Part shown: in pieces, positions 2,511-30,676 of the stretch
Position numbering within the stretch: position 1 is the stretch's first letter
Layout of the letters: every line of letters starts with the position of its first letter
Virus record (IMG/VR): IMGVR_UViG_3300038548_000122
Span: 1 to 30,986 of that record
DNA: 30,986 nucleotides
Source of the DNA: a virus
Direction: 5' to 3' (one strand)
Translations under genes and position numbers: made by a program
The notes under the pieces: generated by a model
Told to the model about the DNA's origin: nothing
The model's database searches: none
What the model saw: the letters and a program-made list of their open reading frames with translations, nothing else

Positions 2511-3050
2511 ATGGCTGATCCCCGAAAAACCACCGCCAAGACCCCGCTGACGCCGTTGCAACATCGGTTCGTGATTGCCTACACGTCACAAGACTGGCTC
2601 TACAATGGCATGGCTGCGGCGAAAGCCGCTGGCTACAGTGGCAACGACCGCACCCTTGCGTCCCAAGCAAATCAGGCCATGCACAAGCCGAACGTATGGT
2701 CAGCGATCGAACGCCGGCTGAACGCGATCTACAACCGTGTGGGCCTGACGATCGAAAACGTCCTACGCGACCTCGAAATCACCCGCCAGGGCGCGATCCG
2801 CGATCGACGATGGGACACCGCGGCGCGCTGCTCTGAGTTGCATGGCAAATATCTGAAAATGTTTGTCGATCGGGTCGAACACATCCGCACCGTGGACGAT
2901 GCGACGACCGACGAGCTCGTGGGGCTGTTATCGCAACTGGTGGACAAGATAGATGGCTTCCCTGTCGTTGAGCGTATTGGAAGAATTGGGCCAATCGGAC
3001 CCGCTGAAAGCGGCGATGTTGGTGGCTCAGGAACTTCAACGACGCACTGA
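2511..3050 (+). CDS. terS: Terminase small subunit
   Basis: The protein (179 residues from ATG 2511) recognises phage DNA and hands it to the large terminase for packaging. Residues about 12-60 match the Terminase_2 pattern: LTPLQHRFVIAY, then a helix-turn-helix-like AAAKAAGYSGNDRTLASQAN and a short KPNVWSAIERRL. The C-terminal part is variable, as in this family, with a helical stretch (TTDELVGLLSQLVDKI). GTG 2481 would add ten residues, but it lies inside the terminator stem, so ATG 2511 is preferred. Neither start has a good Shine-Dalgarno, which is odd. The last 98 bases overlap the large terminase ATPase gene, an unusually long overlap that makes coupling of the two likely. Confidence 0.85.
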   Translation: MADPRKTTAKTPLTPLQHRFVIAYTSQDWLYNGMAAAKAAGYSGNDRTLASQANQAMHKPNVWSAIERRLNAIYNRVGLTIENVLRDLEITRQGAIRDRRWDTAARCSELHGKYLKMFVDRVEHIRTVDDATTDELVGLLSQLVDKIDGFPVVERIGRIGPIGPAESGDVGGSGTSTTH

Positions 3051-3690
3051 AACCCACGGCCTCGACTCTCTGTACCCCGAAGAAGGGCCACTTCGACGTG
3101 AGCTATACGTCAAGCATTTGCTCATGTTCGAAGCCGGCGCGATCCACAACGAACGCATCTGCATGGGCGGCAACCGGGTGGGCAAGACCTTCTCGATCGG
3201 CGGCTACGAAACCACCCTGCATCTGACGGGCCTTTACCCTGATTGGTGGAAGGGCCGCGTTTATGACCATCGCATCTTGAGTTGGGCCGGTGGCACCAAG
3301 GCAACCAAGGTGCGCGACGTGAACCAGCTATTCCTGGTGGGCAAGATCCTCGCCGATCGGCAGCTCGCCGGGGGTCTGATTCCGCAGCATCGAATCAAAC
3401 GCTATACGCGCAAGACCGGCATTGCCGACGCGATCGACCAGCTGACCATCAAGCACGTCAACGGCTATGACAATACGCTGATGTTCAAGTCCTACGAGGA
3501 AGGGCGCACCAGCTTTGAGGCCGAGGCCGTCGATTGGATCTGGCTCGATGAGGAACCGACCAGGGCGATCTACGATGAGTGCATGATGCGGCTGTTGACG
3601 GCGCGCGGCTCGATTATGTCCACGTTGACGCCGGTTGAAGGGATCACCGAAACGATCATCGGCATGCTCGAGGAAACGGATTTTCTATGA
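2953..3690 (+). CDS. terL: Terminase large subunit, ATPase half (split gene)
   Basis: A 245-residue protein carrying the packaging-motor ATPase domain and nothing else. Visible motifs are Walker A GGNRVGKT (72-79), Walker B WIWLDEE (195-201, with catalytic acid E200) and the coupling motif STLTPVEG (223-230). The N-terminal sequence EEGPLRRELYVKHLLMFEAG is typical of P22/T4-like large terminases. A normal relative continues into an RNase H-like nuclease domain for a total of about 450-500 residues. Here the protein stops at TGA 3688-3690, right after the ATPase core, and the nuclease appears as a separate gene at 4763. The stop overlaps the start of the first cassette gene (ATGA). The 245 + 242 residues of the two halves add up to a normal whole, so function as a two-chain enzyme is likely. 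Confidence 0.92.
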   Translation: MASLSLSVLEELGQSDPLKAAMLVAQELQRRTETHGLDSLYPEEGPLRRELYVKHLLMFEAGAIHNERICMGGNRVGKTFSIGGYETTLHLTGLYPDWWKGRVYDHRILSWAGGTKATKVRDVNQLFLVGKILADRQLAGGLIPQHRIKRYTRKTGIADAIDQLTIKHVNGYDNTLMFKSYEEGRTSFEAEAVDWIWLDEEPTRAIYDECMMRLLTARGSIMSTLTPVEGITETIIGMLEETDFL

Positions 3691-4598: not shown

Positions 4599-4770
4599 CG
4601 GCATGAAAAAGGCGTGCGTGCCGTGGGGCTCGTGGAACCTAAACACGGGCGTTTGGCATCACAACCCGCTGCTTGGCGCAACACGCGAAGCACAGCACCA
4701 CGAAAACCTGTTGAACGGCTACTCATGCCCACACGAATACCTCCCGTCGATGTGTCTGATCTGTGAGTAA
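4540..4770 (+). CDS. Small Cys/His-rich protein in the terminase-splitting cassette
   Basis: A 76-residue protein from GTG 4540 with AAAGGA upstream at good spacing; ATG 4594 is a possible shorter start. Its first 59 bases overlap the sulfotransferase-like gene. The second half is distinctive: PWGSWNLNTGVWHHNPLLG, then C63-x-H65 and C72-x2-C75 at the very end (YSCPHEYLPSMCLICE), a likely zinc site. The stop TAA lies inside the start of the nuclease half (GTGAGTAA, 4763-4770), so ribosomes leaving this gene can restart on the nuclease gene. Function unknown. Confidence 0.65.
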   Translation: MPNVSLMLNGPSLPNLAMTSGMKKACVPWGSWNLNTGVWHHNPLLGATREAQHHENLLNGYSCPHEYLPSMCLICE

Positions 4771-5491
4771 ATACGTCGATATGATCGCCTGGGAGGATGC
4801 TCCACATCTGATGCCGCCGAACATTCCCACGGAGGAACTCGATGCCCTCGAAAAGTCGATTCTGCCGCATCAAAGGCAAGCGCGGCGCACCGGCCGGCCA
4901 GCGTTGGGGGCTGGTGCTGTCTATCAGGTCGAGGAAGATTCGATCCTGATCGACCCTGTGCCGATCCCTGATTGGTGGCAACGCGCATACGGGTTCGACG
5001 TCGGCTGGAACCGCACCGCGGCGATATGGGGCGCGCGAGATCCGGACAGCGGCATCTACTACCTGACCCACGAGTATTACGAGAGTGAGCAGCAACCCAT
5101 CGTTCACGCGCACTCGATCAAGATGATTGGCGAGCCCTGGATGGTCGGCGCGATCGACCCGAGCGCCGAGGGATCGAATCAGAAGGATGGGACCAAGCTG
5201 AAAGATGAGTACGAAGACCTGGGCCTCACGCTCGAGAAGGCCAACAACGCAGTCAATTCAGGGATCTTGCGCGTGCTGACGCTGATGCAGGGCGGACAGT
5301 TCAAAGTGTTCCGCACGCTTCCGAATTGGCTCAAGGAATTTCGACTCTACCGCCGTGACGAGAAAGGCAAGATCATCAAGAGCAACGATCACCTGATGGA
5401 CGGCACGCGGTACATGGTCAACACCGACATTGTGTGGAATGCACCACCCGTGGATCACAGCGCGACCGCGATGAAAACCGGAGATTGGTAA
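4763..5491 (+). CDS. terL: Terminase large subunit, nuclease half (split gene)
   Basis: A 242-residue protein that corresponds to the linker and RNase H-like nuclease domain of a large terminase, which cuts DNA at the start and end of packaging. MIAWEDAPHL (7-16), the basic PHQRQARRTGRPALGAGAVY (35-54), YGFDVGWNRTAAIWGA (76-91, metal ligand D79), AIDPSAEG (130-137, D132) and HLMDGTRYM (210-218, D213) are the expected nuclease landmarks, with all three acidic ligands kept. It starts at GTG 4763, overlapping the previous stop. The missing ATPase part is the gene at 2953-3690. The TAA at 5489-5491 overlaps the portal ATG (TAATG). Confidence 0.92.
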   Translation: MSKYVDMIAWEDAPHLMPPNIPTEELDALEKSILPHQRQARRTGRPALGAGAVYQVEEDSILIDPVPIPDWWQRAYGFDVGWNRTAAIWGARDPDSGIYYLTHEYYESEQQPIVHAHSIKMIGEPWMVGAIDPSAEGSNQKDGTKLKDEYEDLGLTLEKANNAVNSGILRVLTLMQGGQFKVFRTLPNWLKEFRLYRRDEKGKIIKSNDHLMDGTRYMVNTDIVWNAPPVDHSATAMKTGDW

Positions 5492-11099: not shown

Positions 11100-12041
11100 A
11101 TGCAGAAATCAGCCGTGTCTGAGAAAGACACGCCTCGGGATCCGCCCAAGATAAACGTGGTCACTGAGGAAAGTCCGGAAACACTAGGTCCGGACCACCG
11201 ACCCGCCGAGCCATTGGTAGACGATGAGCCAAAGCAGGACGCCTCGGCAGCGCCCAAAGACGACGACAGCCAAGGTAGCGACGACAAATCGAAGTCTCGC
11301 AAGCGGAGTAGGAACCGACCGGCAGAACGCAGGGTCAAGGCTCTCACCCGTAAGCTCGAGGCAGCGACCGCCAGCGCAGACGCAAGCGTGGCGCAGATCG
11401 ACGCTCTGACGCGCGAAGTCGAACAGCTCAAGACGCACGCCCCGCCAACTGTGCCAAAGCCCAAGATGAAGGACTTTCAGTCAGCGGAGCTATTCGGTGA
11501 AGCCTGGGCCGAGTGGAAGAAGTCGCAAGAAGCACCCGCGGCACTCCCCAAACAACCCGACGCAGCACCGAGCGCGCACCCCAAACAGGTCGAGATCGAC
11601 GATCTCACCGATGCCGGGGTAGATCAGTTCGGCGAAGAATTCACCGAGGTCTTCAAAGACGACACCCTCCCTCTCTCCGCGACGATGGCGGAATACGCTT
11701 TCGAATCAGACCGTGGAGCCGAGGTGATCATGTGGATCGACGACAACCGCCGTGCAGCCCGCAAGATTTTCAGGATGGACGCAGAGGACACCGAGGAAGC
11801 GTTAGACAAGATCTTAAAAGACCTACCGAAGCATGAAAGTCGTGCTGCTGCTGACCCCGACCCCGACGACGACCCCGACCCTGACCCGACGGATCGTCGC
11901 GTGACCAAAGCCTCCACGCCGCCAGGTGCGCCCGTAGCCGGGACCGACGCTGGCGACACAGGAGAAATTAAAGAGGGTCTTTCAATGGACGACTACGCCA
12001 AGCGAAGGCGAGCGCAAATGTTGAGGGACCGAGTTAGATAG
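11100..12041 (+). CDS. Scaffolding protein
   Basis: A 313-residue, very polar protein just before the coat gene, with a good Shine-Dalgarno (AGAGGAAG, 11084-11091). It has the hallmarks of podovirus scaffolds: an acidic disordered N-terminus, a coiled coil (residues about 79-120, VKALTRKLEAATASADASV and onward), an Asp/Pro repeat tract near residues 250-263 (DPDPDDDPDPDP), and a basic helical C-terminus (SMDDYAKRRRAQMLRDRVR) of the kind that binds coat protein. Scaffolds guide coat assembly and leave before or during DNA packaging. A 55-base gap with a short GGCC-AAAC-GGCC hairpin (11059-11070) separates it from the decoration block. Sequence identity is low in this family, so the call rests on position and architecture. 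Confidence 0.82.
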   Translation: MQKSAVSEKDTPRDPPKINVVTEESPETLGPDHRPAEPLVDDEPKQDASAAPKDDDSQGSDDKSKSRKRSRNRPAERRVKALTRKLEAATASADASVAQIDALTREVEQLKTHAPPTVPKPKMKDFQSAELFGEAWAEWKKSQEAPAALPKQPDAAPSAHPKQVEIDDLTDAGVDQFGEEFTEVFKDDTLPLSATMAEYAFESDRGAEVIMWIDDNRRAARKIFRMDAEDTEEALDKILKDLPKHESRAAADPDPDDDPDPDPTDRRVTKASTPPGAPVAGTDAGDTGEIKEGLSMDDYAKRRRAQMLRDRVR

Positions 12042-12053
12042 CGCCCGGTGGCA

Positions 12054-12086
12054 AGCCATCGGTTCGCTTAGGAGCTACCGATGGCT
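12054..12086 (+). promoter_or_regulatory. Start-codon hairpin of the coat gene
   Basis: AGCCATCGGT (12054-12063) and ACCGATGGCT (12077-12086) are perfect reverse complements. The 10-bp stem contains the coat start codon ATG (12081-12083), and the 13-base loop carries the Shine-Dalgarno TAGGAG (12069-12074). Ribosomes must therefore open the stem, or bind at the loop, to start coat synthesis. It is a clear candidate for translational control. What opens it is unknown. Confidence 0.8.
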
Positions 12087-13310
12087 AACACCCTAATCAC
12101 TCCCTCGATCATCGCTCAAGAAGCGTTGTTCCAGTTGGAGAACAACACGGTGATGGGCGATAAGGTTCATCGCCAGTACAAAAACGAGTTCGTCAAGATC
12201 GGCGCGAGCGTCACAATCCGGCGTCCGGTGCAGTTCGTTGTTTCTGATGGCGCTGTGCGCGTCAACCAGGACATCATCGAGCCGACGACCTCCATCACGA
12301 TCGACCAACGCAAGCACGTTTCGTGGCTGTTCTCGGCGCAGGACTTGACCCTCACGGTCGAAGAATATTCCGAGCGTTACATCAAGCCGGCCATGATCCA
12401 GCTCGCCAACAACATCGACGTTGCGCTCGCACTCGAGGGCGCGAACGAGTTTTTCAACGCTGTTGGAACCCCTGGCACCACGCCATCCGCATTCTCCGAC
12501 CTGGGTGATGTCGCGCAGCGCATGGACGAGTTCTCCATCCCTGACGACTACAACCGTTGCTTGGTTCTGAACCCTGCGGCACGCTGGTCGATCGCTGACG
12601 GCCTGGGCGCGGTGTTCAACGCCGAGATCACGGGCGACACGATCCGCAAGGGTCGCTTGGGTGAGATCGCCAACTTCAACATCTATGGCGATCAGAACAT
12701 CCGAACGCATCTGGTTGGCACGCACAGTGGCACGCCGCTGGTCATGGGCACCATCGTCAACTCAGGTCCGCCATCGGCGTCAACGACCACCACGGCGGTT
12801 CCGTTCGATGCGATGGTCGGCACCGTGACGGGTGCGTTGCTTGTAGGTGACGTGTTCACCATCGACGGTGTGAACTCTGTCAATCCGGTGTCGAAGGACG
12901 ATTCCGGCGTACTGCAGCAGTTCGTGGTCACGGCCGACGTCGATACCACGGCCGGCGCGGGTACGGCCCAGGTCTATCCGATTATGAACGACGGCACGGA
13001 CGCGGCGACTGCAGGATTCCAGACTGTCTCGGCGCTTCCTGCGAACAACGCCGGCATCAACATCCTTGGTGCGTCAGCCGCGACCTACGTGAACAACCTG
13101 GCTTTCCACACGAACGCCTTGGCCCTGGTCACGGTTCCGCTCGAGCTGCCTGATTCGGCAACGTTCAAGGCACGGGCCGACTGGCGTGGGTACTCGATCC
13201 GCGTGATCAAGGACTACGACATCACGAACGACGAGGAAATCATCCGCCTCGATATCCTGTATGGCGTACAGGCCATCTACCCCGAGCTTGGCGTAAGAAT
13301 GCTTGGGTGA
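12081..13310 (+). CDS. Major capsid (coat) protein, P22 gp5-like
   Basis: A 409-residue protein that builds the icosahedral shell. The N-terminus, MANTLITPSIIAQEALFQLE, and the block VKIGASVTIRRPVQF, then EPTTSITIDQRKHVSWLFS, are typical of the P22 coat family, which has the HK97 fold (P22 gp5 is 430 residues). LTVEEYSERYIKPAMIQLANNID is the family's spine-helix region. Residues about 235-320 (Gly/Thr/Val-rich) fit the inserted surface domain of P22-like coats. It follows the scaffold by 39 bases. Its start codon lies in a hairpin, and a second hairpin with a GCAA loop follows the stop, so its expression is probably controlled at both ends. Confidence 0.92.
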   Translation: MANTLITPSIIAQEALFQLENNTVMGDKVHRQYKNEFVKIGASVTIRRPVQFVVSDGAVRVNQDIIEPTTSITIDQRKHVSWLFSAQDLTLTVEEYSERYIKPAMIQLANNIDVALALEGANEFFNAVGTPGTTPSAFSDLGDVAQRMDEFSIPDDYNRCLVLNPAARWSIADGLGAVFNAEITGDTIRKGRLGEIANFNIYGDQNIRTHLVGTHSGTPLVMGTIVNSGPPSASTTTTAVPFDAMVGTVTGALLVGDVFTIDGVNSVNPVSKDDSGVLQQFVVTADVDTTAGAGTAQVYPIMNDGTDAATAGFQTVSALPANNAGINILGASAATYVNNLAFHTNALALVTVPLELPDSATFKARADWRGYSIRVIKDYDITNDEEIIRLDILYGVQAIYPELGVRMLG

Positions 13311-13314
13311 GGTA

Positions 13315-13346
13315 GCATGCGGGGCAGGGCAACCTGCCCCTGATGC
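13315..13346 (+). other. Stable hairpin with GCAA tetraloop after the coat gene
   Basis: GGGGCAGG (13321-13328) pairs perfectly with CCTGCCCC (13333-13340) across a GCAA loop (GNRA type). Below a 2x2 internal loop, GCAT (13315-13318) pairs with ATGC (13343-13346). There is no T run, so it is not a standard terminator. It sits between the coat stop and the next Shine-Dalgarno and could protect the coat message from decay or reduce read-through to later genes. Confidence 0.75.
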
Positions 13347-21496: not shown

Positions 21497-24400
21497 GTGG
21501 CAGAGGAACAAACCAAGCTCGATATTTACCGAAAGCGCAACCCGCGCTTCGATGATGTCTCAGACGATATCCTGGTCAACAACCTGTGGGAGAGCCACTA
21601 TCAGGACATTGATGCGGACGTCTTCCGCGAGATCATGGGTGTTGGGGATTTTGCAACCACCCGCGAAGGTGAGTTCCAAACCGAGATCATTCGTCCAGGT
21701 CAGAAACCTTTTCGCACCAAGCTCGACGACGTACTGACCGACCCTGAGAACCAACTAAAAGACCAAGCCCCCGACGACCTCGGCTCGGCGCTTGATGAGT
21801 TCGACACCCCACCCGATCACATGGCCCCTTTGCGCGCCCATGCTCAACGCAACATCGACCGTGGAACCTTGGCTAATACGCCGGAAGGGATGGCGTCGGT
21901 GCGTAGCGGATCGGTCAACCACGAGCTGCTCAACGACGGTCGAACGACGCTGATCCCGTTTCAGTGGGATGGCGAGATCCTCGATCCACGCGAAGCGACA
22001 CAGCGAGCGATTGACTCCGGTATTCAATGGCCGGCGTTTGACTCCATCGACGAAGCAACCGCGGCATCAAAGCAGTTGAGCGGCAGTCTCGAATTAAACC
22101 TGCGCGTCGGCCAAGGCGCATGGGCCGACCCCGAGCGACCTGGCTACTTCTCCAACATTGCTCGACGCGGCGGCGAGCGTATGGCGGGGCTGGTCGGCAG
22201 CGTGCTCACCACAACTTCGACGCTGACCGAAACCACTGGCCGCGCGGGTGATGTGGCGCTCGCGGAGTGGTGGTACGACCCAGGGCTCGAGCGCGACGTC
22301 GCCGTGAACTACGCGAAGACCCGACCCAACTTCTTCGCCACGTTGGGCGAACACCTGCAAAACGTCGATTACGGTTCGGTCGAGAACTACGGCAAAGAGA
22401 AGATCGAGGAAGCCTGGGACAAAGGCGAATACCTGGGGATGACGGGCGAAATCATTGCCTGGGGCATTGAGGAAGGGGCCGCGTCGATCCCCGATATGAT
22501 CGGCGTTATGTACGCCTTGCCGTCGTACATCACCGCACGCTCCGGAGAGATGGGCACGGAACGCGCGAAGAACGACGGCCGCGATCAAGCGACGACGACC
22601 GACATCATCACAGCTATCCCGGCCGCGATCGGTTCTGCGCTGTTCGAACGATGGGGTGCCTCGTTCATCATCAAGCAGATGCAAAAAGCGGGAATGGCTT
22701 TCAAGAAGGATGCGCTCGAGACAGCGGAAGATCTCGGACGAAATCTGATCCAGCGGGTGTGGGAAAGCGTCAAAGGTGCTGGCAAAACTGCCGGCATGGA
22801 AGGGTTCACCGAAGCCGTGCAGGAAGGGGTGTTCGAATACCTGGGCGAGACTTGGGGCACGGACGTCGAGCTGTCGGCACGTAAGGCAGCAATCCGTGGA
22901 TTTTGGGGTGCGCTCGCCGGTTTTGTGTTCGGTGGCACAGCGGGTGGCCTGAGTACCGCGGCGAAAGAGGCCGGCCATGCGATCAGTGCGCTGGACGCCA
23001 TCCCCGAAGAATTCCTGACGGATCCCGATATGCGTCCGGACCCTGACGGACCAAGGCCAGATCCACCGACGCGGCCGGGAGAGGAAGGGCCACCGATCGA
23101 GGAACCACCAGCTGATATCGACGCAGACCTGGCGCAGCAATCCGAAGTCGCAATGGGTGAGGTCGCGCGTCTTGAAGATGAAGTGGCAAGCCTTGAAAAA
23201 GAGATCGACCAGCTCGATCCAGCCGACACCGAAGCGCGCCTCGATGCAGGTGGATTGCTCGCGGGGGCCGAGGCTGACTTGCAAACAGCTCGAGCGAATC
23301 AGACGCGGATCGACAAAGAGATCGAACGGCGTAAGTTCGGGCCACCGCCCGAGCGCCCACGCGACCTACCGTTCGAGGTTGAAGAAGATCTCGAGAAATC
23401 AAACGCCGAGGTCACTCGTCTTGAAGGTGAATTGGCGACCCGCGAACAAGATCTGAAAGACGACCGTTTGCTCCAGACCCTCGGCCGGGTGACACGTGCC
23501 GACGTCGAGGCCAGCGAAAGACGAGTCAGTGAGGCGCAAGCTGAGTTGGACGCGGAGAGAACCAATCAGACAGAGCTTCAAGAAAGGCTCGACAACTTTG
23601 TTATCGAAGACATTTCCGAACTGACGCAGGCCGACTTGAAGGCGCTGTGGGAAGAAAGCAGCCGGAAATGGCAAGCAGCCGAGGAAGCCGGCGACGTCGC
23701 ACTCGCGGCCACGCTTAAAGCCGAACTCGACACGGTGCAGGATGAGGTCTTGCGCCGCGAAGCAGCCGGCGAACTCGAGCCAGCGCCAAGCGAGACATTC
23801 CCGCCACCGGACTACACGCCCACAACAGAGGCGGAAACGCTGCTCGAGGATATACGACTCGAGATTATCCAACTCGAGTTCCAGAACAACGAGGTGCGCG
23901 AGCAGCTCGACGCATTGACGCCCGAACAGCGAGCAAACATTCCCCCGGCAGAGTGGCTTAACTACGCCGAGCTGTTCGCCTCATTCGAGGAACGCCGCAT
24001 CGACTACGTGCGGCAAAAAGCAACCGTCGAGCAGCTCCGCGCCGACCGCCAGCGCCCAGGTCGAGAGGTTGACGAAGCACTCGCCAAAGACATCATGGAC
24101 GTCTTGCGTTCGATTCGAGACTTTGGACCGAACGTCGATATTGCCGTGAACGCCGAAGAAATGGCCGAAATGGTTGCTCGAGCGCAGCGAGGGGAGAACC
24201 TCGAGGCTATCGCGGCGGCGTTCTGGCGCGGGGAACTCGAGAGCGTTGGCGGTTTCGACGTCGAAGCCGAAAACGCCCGCATCGAGGCAGAAGACGAAGC
24301 GGAGCGAGAAATCCAACGCGAGCGATTGGGTCCAGAATTTCGCGCCTACGAAGCTGCCACGCGCGAGCTGCAGGAACTTGTCGCGCAGCTTTCGAAGAAG

Positions 24401-27400
24401 TACGGGGAGTGGGAACGGTTCGACTACGACGAGCGGATCGGCACGGAGATCGACACGCTCAAAGAACAGTTTGACGAGCTGGACGCGGAACGCGACAGGT
24501 TGAAAGCTCTGTGGCAAGCCGCGAGCCCTGTGGTCCGCACCAGCTTTGCCGGCACCTACGAAATGGCCGGCCAGGAATTCGAGTTCGAAAACGCGCTCGA
24601 CGTCAACCCTCAAACCATGCAGCTAATCATGGAACGCATGTCTGAGGCCGGGATGGACCCCACCAGCCGGGACGCGGACGATGAGTCCGTCTACGGCCGT
24701 CAGGACTTCCACCAATACGCCGAAGAACACGGCTACGACGGGATCATCTTCCACGGTTGGCCCCAACGGGATTTCGAGATCGCGTCGGATATGGGCTTCG
24801 ACGAAGAACTGATGGATGAGTCCGTCGAAGACATCGCGCGTGAAGTTCCGCCGCCCACGCCGCCCACGGACATCACGCCGCCTCCGGAGGTCACGCCGAC
24901 CGCGCGTGATTGGCGGTACGTGGATCCGCGTATGAAGCGCCAGAAGTTTCGTGATTTCCTCCGGGGGCTCAAAGAGGAATTCCAATCCGGCAAGGGTGTG
25001 GGTTCGATCGTTCGGGATCCAATTAGCGGAGAGGTCACGGGCCGCATCACCAGCCCGAATCCGCTATGGGTTCAGGAGTACCTCTCTGAAACCGGCATGA
25101 CGGTCGAGCAGGTTCACAACGCGATCGACAAAGCCCTGGCCGGCCAACGCCTGGGGCATCGTCAGGAAGCATTGGTCAAATCGCTGCTCGACAAGATCAG
25201 CGACGATCGCCAGGAAAAATACATCGACGCCGCACGCAAAGAACTCAAAAAAAGGCGGGACGAGCGGCGAAATTTTGGCGGCGATCCGGACGCAAGGATC
25301 GAGGACGAGTTTTACGACAAGCTCGGCGAGAACTTCGCCGAGTCAGACTATTGGAACTTCGACGATCAGGAACGGATCATCAACGATCTGGCCTATCGGC
25401 TCGTTGAGCTTGGCCTTGACCCCGACCCGATCCTCGCACGCTCACGGAATGACGAAGAACTCATCAGGCGCTTAGAGGAAGCTCTATATGACTACGAAGC
25501 GGGGACGCGCGGTCTTGAGGCGGATGCGGGAGAACAAGCGGACGGGCCACAAGCCGGCGTGGAAGCATACGTTGAAGCCTTTGAAGCAACCGGATGGCGA
25601 GTCGAAGGATTAGCTCCCGATCAGATCTACACCGATGCGGAGGCTGCTTATCCGATATTCGGACCAGCCGGGTATTTCTTCTTCAATGAAGCAGATGCCG
25701 GCAAGTTTGCGGAAGACCCCATCCGCGACTATCCAGAGGCGCAACCCGAGATCACGTCAGAGCCCGTGGTCATTGCGAGTCCCTACCGCATCCGCACTGA
25801 CGCCGAATACAAGGCGCTCGTCACCGCGTCTGGATGGGACGGCTTTCCCAACCCAATGCAGATGCAAGGCACGCCAGAAGAACGGTTGGCGAAGTATCAG
25901 GAGTTCGCCAACGGCATCCGCGAGTATCTAGCCACGCACGGTTTCGATGGCGTCGTGATTGAATTCCACTCCGGCGTCATGGATGTAGACGTTGCGGGCA
26001 ATCCGATCTCGTTGATACGCGACGTGTTCGATACGCCGCAGATGATCGTGTTTGCCCCGTCAGATGAAGCCCTGGCCGGCGCTGACGACCTGGCTGGCTA
26101 CATCGGCGCGAGGATCTTTCACGAAGGCGTGTTGGCCGAGTACACGGGCGCGACCCGAGTGATTGATGGTGACGTGCAATACGAGGTGCTTTTCCTCGCG
26201 GGTGGTCGCCGGGACACCACGGCATGGCTACCGGGCGATCCGATGGAACGCCTCCGTGCCGACCAAGCCCTGGCCGATGAGAAAAGCCGTAAAGCGCGGG
26301 AACTCGAGGGCGGGGAAACCGATCTATCAGATACGCCGCTGTTCGGTCCTGACCAGGGCGACATCTTCGATCTCGAGGGCGTCGAAACCGGAGCGTTGGA
26401 ACAGGTCAGACGTAAGGCGCAGATCCGGCTTCGAGCAGATCGGACCATGGAAACGCTAGGCGAGCAGCTCGGCGAAGACTTCTTGCTGATCGACGACGCA
26501 ATGCTGGACGAGTTCATTCAACGCATGGATGAGGAATTCGCTGGCGACCTGACCGAAGCCCTGGACGACTTCTACGAGCTGACTGCCGCCGAACGCTTGT
26601 TGCTCGACGCGATCATTTCCCGAATCGACACAACGGGCGAGCGGCGCGGCAACACCGAGGCCGAATCTCGCCGCCGCGAAGTCATCGACGCCATGACGCA
26701 CGAACAACGACTGGCGGCGATCTACACCGACGAGCTGACCGGCCTGGGCAATAAACGTTTGCTCAACGAAAACATTATGGATGCGCCTTTCGTCCTCGCT
26801 TTCGATCTGGACAACTTGAGTGTCGTCAACGACGAGCTCGGCCGTGACGTGGGAGACAAGCTGCTGCAGGCCATGGCCGACGTGATCAAGCGGAACGTGG
26901 ACGAGGGCTTCCATACGTCAGGCAGTAACTTCGTGATCCTGGGTGACGATCTTCAAGAGCTGTCGGAGATTGCCGCCGAGATCGAAAAGGACTTGGCCGA
27001 AGCTGCGGTGGGAGGTGAGCGTGGCGAGCTGCGTGGACTCAAAGCGAATTGGGGCGTTGCGCCTGATTTGCGTACGGCTGACCAGGTGGCTCGACTTCAA
27101 AAGCAGAGAAAGCTCGACTCTGGCGAGCATTACCCGCGCGGCGTAGTCCCGCCGAACCTGACCCTGGCCGGCACCACCGATCCCGAGATCGACGCCGCCA
27201 AAGATCCGATGGCCGAACCCGGCGACAACTACATTCCGATGATCGGCAAGACGGGTGAGCTGCCGCTGGATCAGGACAACAACTACGTGCTATCGGATGG
27301 CCGGCGCGTTCGAATTCCCAAAAAGGCGGTACGCAAGGCACACATCATCCGCTACATGAAGGACGTCTTTGGCCTGCAAATCTACACCGGGCGCGTCAAA

Positions 27401-30400
27401 GGCAAGACCTGGCTCGGCTTCTATCGCAAGAGAATCGGTGAGATCCGGACCAAGTTCCAAAACGATCTCGAGGTGACGGCGCACGAAGTCGGTCACTGGT
27501 TCGACGACCGATACAACTACTCAAATCTGTACGAGGCCCACAAGAAAGAGCTGAACGACGTCAGCTACGACTCATCGAAGACCAACGAGGGTTTCGCGGA
27601 GTTCTTCCGTTTGTATCTGACGCAGGAACACGAAGCACAAAAGCGTGCGCCATTCTTCTTCGAAGTCTGGAAAAACCACCTCGACGAGATGAGCGAAAGC
27701 GACCTCAAATCAGATCGGGAAATGGCCGCGGGGTTGCGTGACGTGCAGGAAATGATGCACGCCTGGTATCTGCAAGGCGCGGGGAAACGGTTGGATTCGA
27801 AGATCGGCAATCCCAACTTGCCGCTGTCGATCCGCTTCCAAGAATTCCGCGTCCAGGCCGCTGACTATGTAATCCAAAAGACGCTCGACCAGCTCCGTTC
27901 GTTCAAGCAAGTCGCACGGACGCTTGGTGTCTGGAACGAGCTTGGCGGGTTCTATCAGGACTTCCGCAAAGCCAAGGTCAGCAACGAAGTGGCGATGGTC
28001 TTTATCACGAAGGGCACGGGGATTCGAACCGAAGTCGCGGGCGAGGCGATGCCTGGGCAGTTGAAGCACACCGGCGACGAGCAGGTTGGCGATATGCAAT
28101 GGACCGGCGAGGCGCTTAACGACATCTTCCGCGACGTTGCCGACAACATGGACAACTTCGTTCGCTACATGGTGGCACGCCGCGGCCGTGAGCTTTACAA
28201 CCAGGGCCGTGAACATCACCTGCGCCCCGATGAGATCGTCTTTGGCCTCAAGTTCGGCGTTGCTGATGAGCGTTTCGAGGGTGTGTTCGATCGCTACCAA
28301 GCGTGGAACTCACGGATGATGGATTACTACGTGCAAAGCGGCATCGTCAGTGAAAGCAGCCGTCAGCAGATGGAGGCGATGAACCACGACTATGTGCCGT
28401 TCAACAGGATCATCGACGCCTTAAACTCCAACACCGTGCAGCGCGGCACGAGAACAACGCCCTTCCAACGTTTGCGCGGCGGCACGGCGAACCTCAACGA
28501 CGTGATGGACAACATCCACACCAACACGTCGTTCTTGGTTCACATGGCAATGGTCAACCAGGCCAAGCGTGGCCTCTACGACGCCATCGACAACGCTGAA
28601 GACCAGGCCGGCGCGATGTATGCCGTGAGGATCCCGCGTGAAGTGAAATCGACCATGATTCCGCGGGAGCAGGTCGAGCGCGCCGTCGTGCATGGTTTTG
28701 GTTTGACCATGCGCGAGTGGCGACACATGACCGATGGGGTTGGAGTTGTGGACGAGGCGGAAGCTCAAATGGTCGAGCGGATCAACGCCGCCTTCGACAC
28801 ATTCGAGCCATTCGTACAGTTTTGGCAAGTGGGCGTGGAGCCGACGTCGGGCAAGGGCGACCAGCTGGTGGATTTCGTGTTCCGCAACGGACGCAAGGAT
28901 TTCTACGAGATCATGGACCCGATGCTGATGGATTCGATCAATCACGTTGGTCCGCAAGCACACAACCTGGCCGTGCGGATCTTGGGTGGCTTCTCCAATC
29001 TGCTGCGCCGCACCGTGACGTCGTTTCCGCTATTTCAATTTAGCAACTGGATCCGCGACACGATGCAAGCCTGGACGCTCACGAAGGGTCGCGCGATCCC
29101 GATCGTGCCAGCAGTCAACGCCCTGTTCGAACGCATGTGGGACGACACACACTATTGGGAATACGTCCTCAACGGCGGCGGCATGGCAACCATCGCCCAG
29201 GCCGAAGGCATCAACGCCGACCACATCATCGACTTCAACAAGCCGGCGCGGGGGCTTTGGGAGAAATCGAAGCGCATGTGGCGGGCCTACGACCGCGCCC
29301 TCTCGACGCTCGAGTACGCCAACCGACTTGCGGAGTTCAAGGAACTTCGAAGGTTGGGTTACAGCAAGCAGGAAGCAGCGTTTGCCGGCCGTGAGATATC
29401 CACCGACTTTGCGATGCGCGGCAGCTCCGACGCGATGCGCGTGATCACGATCTCAATTCCGTTTCTCAACGCCAGGATGCAGGGTGGCTATCGGCTCGCA
29501 AGAGAGGCTTACGCGAAGGGACCAGCCGAATCAGTGGGTCACATCCGATGGCAAAGCGCCATGAAATACGCGAGTCGAGCCATGATCGGCATCACGATCC
29601 CGACCATCGTTCTGTACTTCATGAACAAGGACGACTGGAGATATAAGGACATGCCCGATTGGATGCGGGACATGAATTGGGTGATCTTTTACGGGTGGGG
29701 CGAAGACGACTACGTTTTGATGCCCAAGCCGTTCGAAACCGGCTTGGCCTGGGCGACCGTGCCGGAACGCACCATCGAATATATGTATACGAACGACGAG
29801 GGGGAGCTGGCCGACGCGCTTGGTTGGATGTTCATGGAGACATTTGCCCTGGACGTGCGCCCACAAGCGTACAAGCCCATCGACGAGATCATCCGCAACA
29901 AAAAATGGACCGGAGCCCCGGTGGTTCCTGCATACCTCGAGGACGTGATTGCCTCGCAGCAGTACAAGCACTACACGTCCGACGCGATGGTGGCGCTTGG
30001 CAAGAAGATGGGGATTTCGCCGCTCAAGGCCGAGCATTTGGTGAGTGGCTACGCAGCACAATTAGGCCAGTATTCGCTGGCGGTTGCCGACTTCATCGTG
30101 GGTGATACAACCAATGGCGGTCAAAAGGTCGCGCCTTTTGGTCGGGAGGTTGACGACCAGGCGCTATTCGAACTGTGGGGCCGCGAGTTCTACGCAGACC
30201 TTCCCGAAACGATCTTCGATTCAGTGTTCTTGCAGCGGATCAAGGCTCAAGGCCCGTTGCGCCGCACGCGCAGCGAGGAAGATTTTTACGACCTACTGAA
30301 AGCTGCACGCACGACCGCCAACACCGTCCAGTTGATGAAGCTCCGCGACCTCGAGGGGCTACGGGAATATCTGAGCCGGGGCAAAGAAGCGACGTTCTAC

Positions 30401-30676
30401 GGGCTCGCATCGACGCTCGAGGAACGATCGCGGGAAGTGAACAAGATCAACTCGCGCATGGATGCGGTGGCCGTCAACCCCGATATGACGGGCGTGGAGA
30501 AGCGCGACACACTTAACGAGCTGCAACGCTTCAAAAACCAAATTCACAGGGCCACGATGCAACAGCTCGACGTCGAACAACTCGAGGAAATGGAAGCACT
30601 GATGGAACAAGCCTACGTGCCGCCAGAGCCCGAGTCCGAGGCCAGCCAAACTCTGGACGCCTTGCGACAACAGTGA
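21497..30676 (+). CDS. Giant polyvalent internal virion protein (3059 residues)
   Basis: One frame of 9.2 kb, GTG 21497, three bases after the previous stop. In order: an N-terminal region (IYRKRNPRFDDVSDD); a hydrophobic Gly/Ala segment near 468-485; a long coiled coil about 545-760; an ART-like fragment about 1015-1100 (HGYDGIIF, 1078-1085); and a second ADP-ribosyltransferase-like region about 1355-1525 (GPAGYFFFNEADAGKFAEDP, then HGFDGVVIE and QMIVFAPSDEAL). These are followed by a GGDEF-like domain about 1742-1830 with a broken active loop; a metallopeptidase with HEVGH (1996-2000) and E2031/E2035; an LPD38-like region about 2490-2680; and one membrane helix near 2690-2708. This is the architecture of phage polyvalent proteins, which are packaged and ejected with the DNA. 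No lytic transglycosylase motif was recognised. Confidence 0.85.
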   Translation: MAEEQTKLDIYRKRNPRFDDVSDDILVNNLWESHYQDIDADVFREIMGVGDFATTREGEFQTEIIRPGQKPFRTKLDDVLTDPENQLKDQAPDDLGSALDEFDTPPDHMAPLRAHAQRNIDRGTLANTPEGMASVRSGSVNHELLNDGRTTLIPFQWDGEILDPREATQRAIDSGIQWPAFDSIDEATAASKQLSGSLELNLRVGQGAWADPERPGYFSNIARRGGERMAGLVGSVLTTTSTLTETTGRAGDVALAEWWYDPGLERDVAVNYAKTRPNFFATLGEHLQNVDYGSVENYGKEKIEEAWDKGEYLGMTGEIIAWGIEEGAASIPDMIGVMYALPSYITARSGEMGTERAKNDGRDQATTTDIITAIPAAIGSALFERWGASFIIKQMQKAGMAFKKDALETAEDLGRNLIQRVWESVKGAGKTAGMEGFTEAVQEGVFEYLGETWGTDVELSARKAAIRGFWGALAGFVFGGTAGGLSTAAKEAGHAISALDAIPEEFLTDPDMRPDPDGPRPDPPTRPGEEGPPIEEPPADIDADLAQQSEVAMGEVARLEDEVASLEKEIDQLDPADTEARLDAGGLLAGAEADLQTARANQTRIDKEIERRKFGPPPERPRDLPFEVEEDLEKSNAEVTRLEGELATREQDLKDDRLLQTLGRVTRADVEASERRVSEAQAELDAERTNQTELQERLDNFVIEDISELTQADLKALWEESSRKWQAAEEAGDVALAATLKAELDTVQDEVLRREAAGELEPAPSETFPPPDYTPTTEAETLLEDIRLEIIQLEFQNNEVREQLDALTPEQRANIPPAEWLNYAELFASFEERRIDYVRQKATVEQLRADRQRPGREVDEALAKDIMDVLRSIRDFGPNVDIAVNAEEMAEMVARAQRGENLEAIAAAFWRGELESVGGFDVEAENARIEAEDEAEREIQRERLGPEFRAYEAATRELQELVAQLSKKYGEWERFDYDERIGTEIDTLKEQFDELDAERDRLKALWQAASPVVRTSFAGTYEMAGQEFEFENALDVNPQTMQLIMERMSEAGMDPTSRDADDESVYGRQDFHQYAEEHGYDGIIFHGWPQRDFEIASDMGFDEELMDESVEDIAREVPPPTPPTDITPPPEVTPTARDWRYVDPRMKRQKFRDFLRGLKEEFQSGKGVGSIVRDPISGEVTGRITSPNPLWVQEYLSETGMTVEQVHNAIDKALAGQRLGHRQEALVKSLLDKISDDRQEKYIDAARKELKKRRDERRNFGGDPDARIEDEFYDKLGENFAESDYWNFDDQERIINDLAYRLVELGLDPDPILARSRNDEELIRRLEEALYDYEAGTRGLEADAGEQADGPQAGVEAYVEAFEATGWRVEGLAPDQIYTDAEAAYPIFGPAGYFFFNEADAGKFAEDPIRDYPEAQPEITSEPVVIASPYRIRTDAEYKALVTASGWDGFPNPMQMQGTPEERLAKYQEFANGIREYLATHGFDGVVIEFHSGVMDVDVAGNPISLIRDVFDTPQMIVFAPSDEALAGADDLAGYIGARIFHEGVLAEYTGATRVIDGDVQYEVLFLAGGRRDTTAWLPGDPMERLRADQALADEKSRKARELEGGETDLSDTPLFGPDQGDIFDLEGVETGALEQVRRKAQIRLRADRTMETLGEQLGEDFLLIDDAMLDEFIQRMDEEFAGDLTEALDDFYELTAAERLLLDAIISRIDTTGERRGNTEAESRRREVIDAMTHEQRLAAIYTDELTGLGNKRLLNENIMDAPFVLAFDLDNLSVVNDELGRDVGDKLLQAMADVIKRNVDEGFHTSGSNFVILGDDLQELSEIAAEIEKDLAEAAVGGERGELRGLKANWGVAPDLRTADQVARLQKQRKLDSGEHYPRGVVPPNLTLAGTTDPEIDAAKDPMAEPGDNYIPMIGKTGELPLDQDNNYVLSDGRRVRIPKKAVRKAHIIRYMKDVFGLQIYTGRVKGKTWLGFYRKRIGEIRTKFQNDLEVTAHEVGHWFDDRYNYSNLYEAHKKELNDVSYDSSKTNEGFAEFFRLYLTQEHEAQKRAPFFFEVWKNHLDEMSESDLKSDREMAAGLRDVQEMMHAWYLQGAGKRLDSKIGNPNLPLSIRFQEFRVQAADYVIQKTLDQLRSFKQVARTLGVWNELGGFYQDFRKAKVSNEVAMVFITKGTGIRTEVAGEAMPGQLKHTGDEQVGDMQWTGEALNDIFRDVADNMDNFVRYMVARRGRELYNQGREHHLRPDEIVFGLKFGVADERFEGVFDRYQAWNSRMMDYYVQSGIVSESSRQQMEAMNHDYVPFNRIIDALNSNTVQRGTRTTPFQRLRGGTANLNDVMDNIHTNTSFLVHMAMVNQAKRGLYDAIDNAEDQAGAMYAVRIPREVKSTMIPREQVERAVVHGFGLTMREWRHMTDGVGVVDEAEAQMVERINAAFDTFEPFVQFWQVGVEPTSGKGDQLVDFVFRNGRKDFYEIMDPMLMDSINHVGPQAHNLAVRILGGFSNLLRRTVTSFPLFQFSNWIRDTMQAWTLTKGRAIPIVPAVNALFERMWDDTHYWEYVLNGGGMATIAQAEGINADHIIDFNKPARGLWEKSKRMWRAYDRALSTLEYANRLAEFKELRRLGYSKQEAAFAGREISTDFAMRGSSDAMRVITISIPFLNARMQGGYRLAREAYAKGPAESVGHIRWQSAMKYASRAMIGITIPTIVLYFMNKDDWRYKDMPDWMRDMNWVIFYGWGEDDYVLMPKPFETGLAWATVPERTIEYMYTNDEGELADALGWMFMETFALDVRPQAYKPIDEIIRNKKWTGAPVVPAYLEDVIASQQYKHYTSDAMVALGKKMGISPLKAEHLVSGYAAQLGQYSLAVADFIVGDTTNGGQKVAPFGREVDDQALFELWGREFYADLPETIFDSVFLQRIKAQGPLRRTRSEEDFYDLLKAARTTANTVQLMKLRDLEGLREYLSRGKEATFYGLASTLEERSREVNKINSRMDAVAVNPDMTGVEKRDTLNELQRFKNQIHRATMQQLDVEQLEEMEALMEQAYVPPEPESEASQTLDALRQQ

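Follow-up and report, generated by a model that had tools for sequence, protein, structure and literature searches.

A candidate three-part RNA switch at the scaffold-coat junction in a clade of uncultured P22-like phages

How tailed phages set the ratio of scaffold to coat protein, and the order in which the two are made, is a long-standing question that has mostly been studied in P22. We met it in the whole IMG/VR virus record IMGVR_UViG_3300038548_000122 (30,986 bases; hereafter the window), where the start codon of a P22-type coat gene lies in the stem of a hairpin just downstream of the scaffold gene. The question raised by this locus is what such a hairpin does in front of the gene for the most abundant virion protein, and whether the hairpin is the whole of the element.

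The scaffold-coat junction

The coat gene was assigned by family models, and its coordinates are listed with those of the other features in Table 1. The upstream gene itself matched no family model. However, the profile built from this gene across the clade described below hits proteins annotated as capsid scaffolds in public phages (hhalign E 2e-19), and its position in the gene order is that of the scaffold genes in those phages. A gap of 39 nt separates the scaffold stop from the coat ATG.

Table 1. Features of the scaffold-coat junction in the window. Positions are those of the record; the rightmost column gives the basis of the assignment.
Feature	Position	Strand	Description	Basis
Scaffold gene	11100..12041	+	313 aa; stop TAG at 12039-12041	Clade-profile match, gene order
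Segment A, CCGGTGG	12045..12051	+	Partner of B; pairing is predicted to open the coat start	Stop-to-SD fold
Segment B, AGCCATCGGT	12054..12063	+	5' arm of the start hairpin; 12056-12062 also the partner of A	
Loop with Shine-Dalgarno AGGAG (12070-12074)	12064..12076	+	13 nt	
Segment C, ACCGATGGCT	12077..12086	+	3' arm; contains ATG (12081-12083) and codon 2	
P22-type coat protein gene	12081..13310	+	409 aa	Pfam PF11651, E 2.5e-57; PHROG 283

An earlier note, made from the letters of this DNA, had described the start hairpin as two 10-base arms that are exact reverse complements, with the Shine-Dalgarno (SD) sequence in the loop, the ATG in the 3' arm, and a 5' arm that is non-coding. This geometry is correct in every respect, the upstream open reading frame ending before the 5' arm begins (Table 1). 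We refer to the two arms as B and C. Positions 12030-12110 fold at -30.1 kcal/mol (z -3.3), and 0 of 200 shuffles were as good; the start hairpin taken without the upstream segment A reaches z -5.3. Its 33-mer is present once in the window, which rules out a repeat element. An intrinsic terminator was also rejected, as no terminator-like site was called at the hairpin and its stem is followed by AACACC with no U-run. Rfam covariance models gave no match at gathering threshold in the window, and none at E<=1 in 11950-12250.

Another hairpin, on the + strand at 13321-13340, lies just past the coat stop and is a perfect 8-bp stem (GGGGCAGG-gcaa-CCTGCCCC). Hairpins at this position are common in the P22-like family, with z<-2 in 58% of the members outside the clade, and are sometimes followed by a U-run (L147, L148). 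They do not correlate with the start hairpin, so the two were rejected as one linked feature.

Conservation of the start hairpin in one clade

Coat homologues were collected from viral contigs, one genome collection, and public phages. The coat of the window falls in a single branch with 98% support, in a tree holding 13 clade rows. Clade coats share 59-70% protein identity with that of the window, and all members come from metagenome contigs of uncultured P22-like phages; the closest public phage coat in the collection is at most 38% identical to the window. There are 14 distinct coat starts (the window, L147, L148, L149, L150, L153, L154, L155, L156, L157, L167, L168, L170, and L376), with L151 and L152 being near copies of L150. 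The scaffold-coat gap is 33-47 nt in every clade member, whereas the median over 84 other phages is 17.5.

Folding of the region from -40 to +15 around the coat start gave a mean z of -3.44 for the clade, as opposed to +0.09 for 102 other SD-bearing gene starts from the same loci (Mann-Whitney ~1e-9; L152 was counted separately and L376 left out, and because the clade sequences are related, combined p-values overstate their independence). When positions from -300 to +300 were scanned, the strongest signal coincided with the coat start, and did so in the clade only. The B:C pairing without segment A has a mean z of -3.47 and p<0.04 in 13 of the 14 members, the exception being L376 (z -0.14). 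The B:C pattern had already been stated when four entries (L149, L150/L152, L154, and L376) came to light; their layout fits it, with weak B:C in L376.

The arms are mostly unalike between clade members, and the pairing is nonetheless kept. Substitutions are compensated even within the coding arm: the first base of the start codon pairs as A-U, but as G-C in L376, which has a GTG start; coding base 5 is matched in the non-coding arm as C-G, or as T-A in L155; coding base 6 faces its non-coding partner as T-A, C-G, or T.G; and coding base 9 as T-A or C-G. Selection for pairing, which had been offered as the simple explanation of the hairpin, thus holds up, since the pairing is kept and compensated in the clade and chance is excluded by the comparison with other gene starts. 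Within the clade we encountered no member with the same coat start in which the pairing was neither conserved nor compensated.

Outside the clade the pattern disappears. The mean z is -0.26 for 90 other P22-like coats and -0.42 for 32 further coats, mostly more distant, and ten public phages have no coat-start hairpin on average (z -1.5 to +1.5). The 90 other coats and the ten public phages rule out a feature common to P22-like coats as a family. Start hairpins of other kinds were seen in distant groups. Two P22-like coats with 33% identity to L168 (L258, ~766-785; L261, ~2480-2500) carry a start hairpin, CGTAGC/GCTACG (z -3.5 and -2.6), whose loop contains an SD-like sequence and which may be of independent origin. 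Another coat group (L192, L193, L200, and L093) has hairpins of the GGCCTAACC/GGTTAGGTC type just upstream of the ATG (z -1.7 to -2.4), and no significant counterpart in this group was found for the A:B hairpin described in the next section. In L031 (~4974-4996), the coat SD is buried in the stem of a 10-bp hairpin, GTCTCCGGCG/CGCCGGAGAC (z -3.7).

What the hairpin closes is the start codon. Opening the AUG costs 4.9 kcal/mol in the clade vs. 2.0 in controls (p 5e-6), and the SD is no more occluded than in controls (5.5 vs. 5.1 kcal/mol, p 0.86). In the common layout the SD is largely in the loop and the start in the stem, and the first base of the start codon is paired in 13 of the 14 locked folds. 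L148 and L153 depart from this layout by having the SD within the stem, and in L148 it is the SD that is paired rather than the AUG.

This layout bears on a timing mechanism known from phage T4, where RBS-sequestering hairpins stand at the starts of soc, e, 39, 25, 26, and I-TevI on polycistronic RNA, hide the SD, and in the case of I-TevI give it up when a late promoter is used (PMC2988022). By this precedent, the hairpin would be present in RNA read through from upstream, and a shorter mRNA begun at a late promoter near B would have a free start. The likeness is a hairpin at a phage gene start on polycistronic RNA. Unlike the T4 cases, the SD here is usually in the loop and it is the AUG that is paired, an alternative hairpin exists that the timing mechanism would leave unexplained, and we found no promoter-like (sigma-70-like) site near 12000-12060. 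A shared promoter upstream of coat finds no support across the clade either: the sole motif held in common upstream is the scaffold coding motif MDDYA, with no shared non-coding motif. We therefore regard control by promoter timing as very improbable.

The same alignments bear on control by a protein, which the earlier note had considered with coat or scaffold protein as the trigger. Free scaffold or coat would bind one fold and so set coat translation by autoregulation. P22 scaffold controls its own synthesis post-transcriptionally, and the element lies between precisely the two genes concerned, both of which fit such a role. Another parallel is the MS2/R17 coat operator, a start-codon hairpin in phage mRNA that serves the balance of capsid proteins. 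Unlike that operator, however, the hairpins of this clade lack a conserved motif in loop or bulge that a protein could recognize. Their arms and loops have no sequence in common beyond the SD, which disfavors recognition of a conserved loop motif and means that a protein would have to read shape. A protein-operated switch is accordingly a distinctly unlikely explanation.

A second pairing of the same arm

The 5' arm has a second partner that the earlier note did not see. In the window, segment A (Table 1) can pair with CCATCGG, at 12056-12062 within B. Segment A begins +2 to +5 nt past the scaffold stop in every clade member, and A:B is present in 14 of 14; for the window alone the pairing has z -1.8. 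Its sequence varies between members, for example GCCAAGG/CCTTGGC in L147, CCGAGGAT/ATCCTCGG in L148, GGGAGCC/GGCTCCC in L153, GGGGCTGAC/GTCGGTCCC in L155, and GGGACC/GGTCCC in L168. The fold from the stop to the SD, which includes neither the SD nor the start, has a mean z of -2.95 in 13 members vs. -0.43 in 24 comparable non-clade gaps; A:B was first spotted by eye in the same sequences that were later scored, so that L376 is the only test on unseen data. L376, the member found last, keeps the pairing as GGGGTC/GGCCCC, with the outer A-U of L154 changed to G-C.

Two members have weak A:B pairing (L156, z -0.8; L157, z -1.2), and shuffling A alone gave a weak result (Fisher p 0.0014), which can be traced to the few distinct shuffles that short segments allow. 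The B core TTGGCCC is invariant in L149, L150, L154, L167, and L376 while its surroundings vary, which would be expected if the segment has to pair with two others. Taken across the clade, the comparative evidence gives good support to the view that selection has kept and compensated both pairings.

The two pairings have 4-9 bases in common in all 14 members and are thus mutually exclusive. We also tried a loose yes/no test for such triads (shared bases plus a paired AUG), and dropped it, as about a quarter of shuffles (~25%) and 9 of 43 other gaps passed. GC-rich gaps often give some alternative pairing, and the case for two competing folds is therefore built from energies and covariation only. 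The layout of a translational switch that had been read from the hairpin is in this respect supported, by conserved and compensated pairing, and at the same time incomplete, the 5' arm being part of a two-state element made of A, B, and C.

Of the two pairings, B:C is the more stable in every member, by 2.3-9.3 kcal/mol. Equilibrium thus favors the locked state by 2-9 kcal/mol, and an open state would need kinetics or an effector. In calculations for growing transcripts, the probability of A:B is 0.90 when the 3' end of the RNA is at -8 and 0.00 when it is at +19; it climbs back to 0.52-1.0 once a 30S subunit occupies the start (these probabilities, like the masking costs below, are equilibrium calculations on one strand). 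In most members, the predicted ON fold leaves the SD or the AUG partly paired.

The stability of B:C suits a simpler reading, in which this conserved hairpin acts as an inhibitor that either lowers coat translation or makes it dependent on S1 or on standby binding to the exposed SD. A:B would then be a stem of its own, serving for example to insulate coat from ribosomes that have finished the scaffold gene, and would share bases with B:C only by accident. The SD is indeed exposed while the AUG is locked, and published screens tie structure right after an upstream stop to less coupling (PMC12548453). Against such a static brake, A:B is independently conserved, always begins +2 to +5 past the stop, and in every member draws on the same bases of B; a lock of many kcal/mol would also be odd for a gene needing the highest expression. 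We consider the static brake together with its insulating variant unlikely.

Masking calculations address the part that ribosomes on the scaffold gene could play. When 6-12 nt past the scaffold stop are masked, the coat start becomes more costly to open, the mean rising from 11.6 to 15.5-16.7 kcal/mol, and this mean falls below the unmasked value only with at least 18 nt masked. Classical translational coupling, in which a ribosome ending the scaffold gene would open the hairpin for coat, has in its favor the gene spacing of 33-47 nt, which is within the range where some coupling persists (PMC12548453). Closely spaced gene pairs with an inhibitory structure at the downstream start are also known from coupling by unfolding in phage f1 (VII/IX) and MS2 (coat/lysis; PMC12548453). 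Unlike those pairs, the 5' arm here is outside both the upstream open reading frame and the stop-codon footprint, with B starting ~12 nt past the stop in the window. Masks of 0-12 nt past the stop fail to open the start, those of 6-12 nt tighten the lock, and relief needs at least 18 nt. The masking result contradicts simple coupling by melting and favors attenuator-like logic; coupling is, in our estimate, the least probable of the explanations weighed here. It likewise disfavors the suggestion in the earlier note of a brake released by ribosomes, insofar as the ribosome finishing scaffold was to melt it.

Working model and related systems

The interpretation that we find fairly probable is that the 39-nt scaffold-coat gap acts as a three-part bistable, co-transcriptional, ribosome-responsive RNA switch for coat translation. 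The most abundant virion protein would then probably be under a built-in RNA on/off control; the trigger and the direction of the switch we infer from the folding model. In a growing transcript, A:B is predicted to form first, at which stage most of the coat start would be accessible. B:C is predicted to take over as soon as the first coat codons are present in the RNA; the start codon would then be paired, and the SD would in most cases lie in the loop or close to it. A 30S subunit on the coat start is predicted to let A:B re-form. New transcripts would thus offer a time window for ribosomes to load on coat, after which loaded messages may be held open through A:B and idle ones may fall into the lock. 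Because a ribosome on the scaffold stop would hide A and favor the lock, scaffold traffic would oppose coat initiation until cleared.

A more specific version of the switch, which is possible but rather doubtful, is a cis-acting attenuator with the scaffold gene as the sensed frame: the terminating ribosome would cover A and bring on the lock, and when traffic is over, A:B would open coat. If true, scaffold would be made before coat from one mRNA without a regulatory protein.

In its working, the proposed element would most resemble bistable RBS switches such as lambda cIII, together with ribosome-controlled attenuators. In lambda cIII, RNase III relieves the inhibitory structure. Its start is inhibited in one mRNA conformation and open in another (PMC2777011), and the predicted likeness is a phage gene start closed in one fold and open in the other. 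The differences are the class of gene and, here, a third segment placed directly after the stop codon of another gene. In the trp leader and in erm/cat attenuation, competing hairpins are chosen by a ribosome near a stop codon. Our competing hairpins are predicted to be placed for a similar choice, and an analogy to ribosome-controlled attenuators is also drawn in PMC12548453. Unlike those systems, by analogy the sensed open reading frame would be a full structural gene and not a leader peptide, with the start codon of the next gene as the output. In the open-access literature searched, no paper described a coat-gene switch for P22-like phages.

The element is a compact RNA located at exactly the scaffold-coat junction, compensated across a whole clade and absent from its cousins. 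If the direction of the switch is confirmed, it would mean protein-free timing of capsid protein synthesis, and its segments are short enough to be broken and restored one by one.

Two further loci in the window were recorded, both on the + strand. The large terminase is split into Terminase_6N and Terminase_6C open reading frames (2953-3690 and 4763-5491), which are ~1.07 kb apart; the two small open reading frames between the halves have no Pfam match, and the split could reflect an insertion, an intron, or an error of assembly. Nearly a third of the record (21497-30676) is taken up by an open reading frame of 3059 aa, in which residues 1743-1856 match a GGDEF (diguanylate cyclase) domain and residues 2715-2868 an LPD38 domain. 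A GGDEF domain within a giant phage protein looks unusual.
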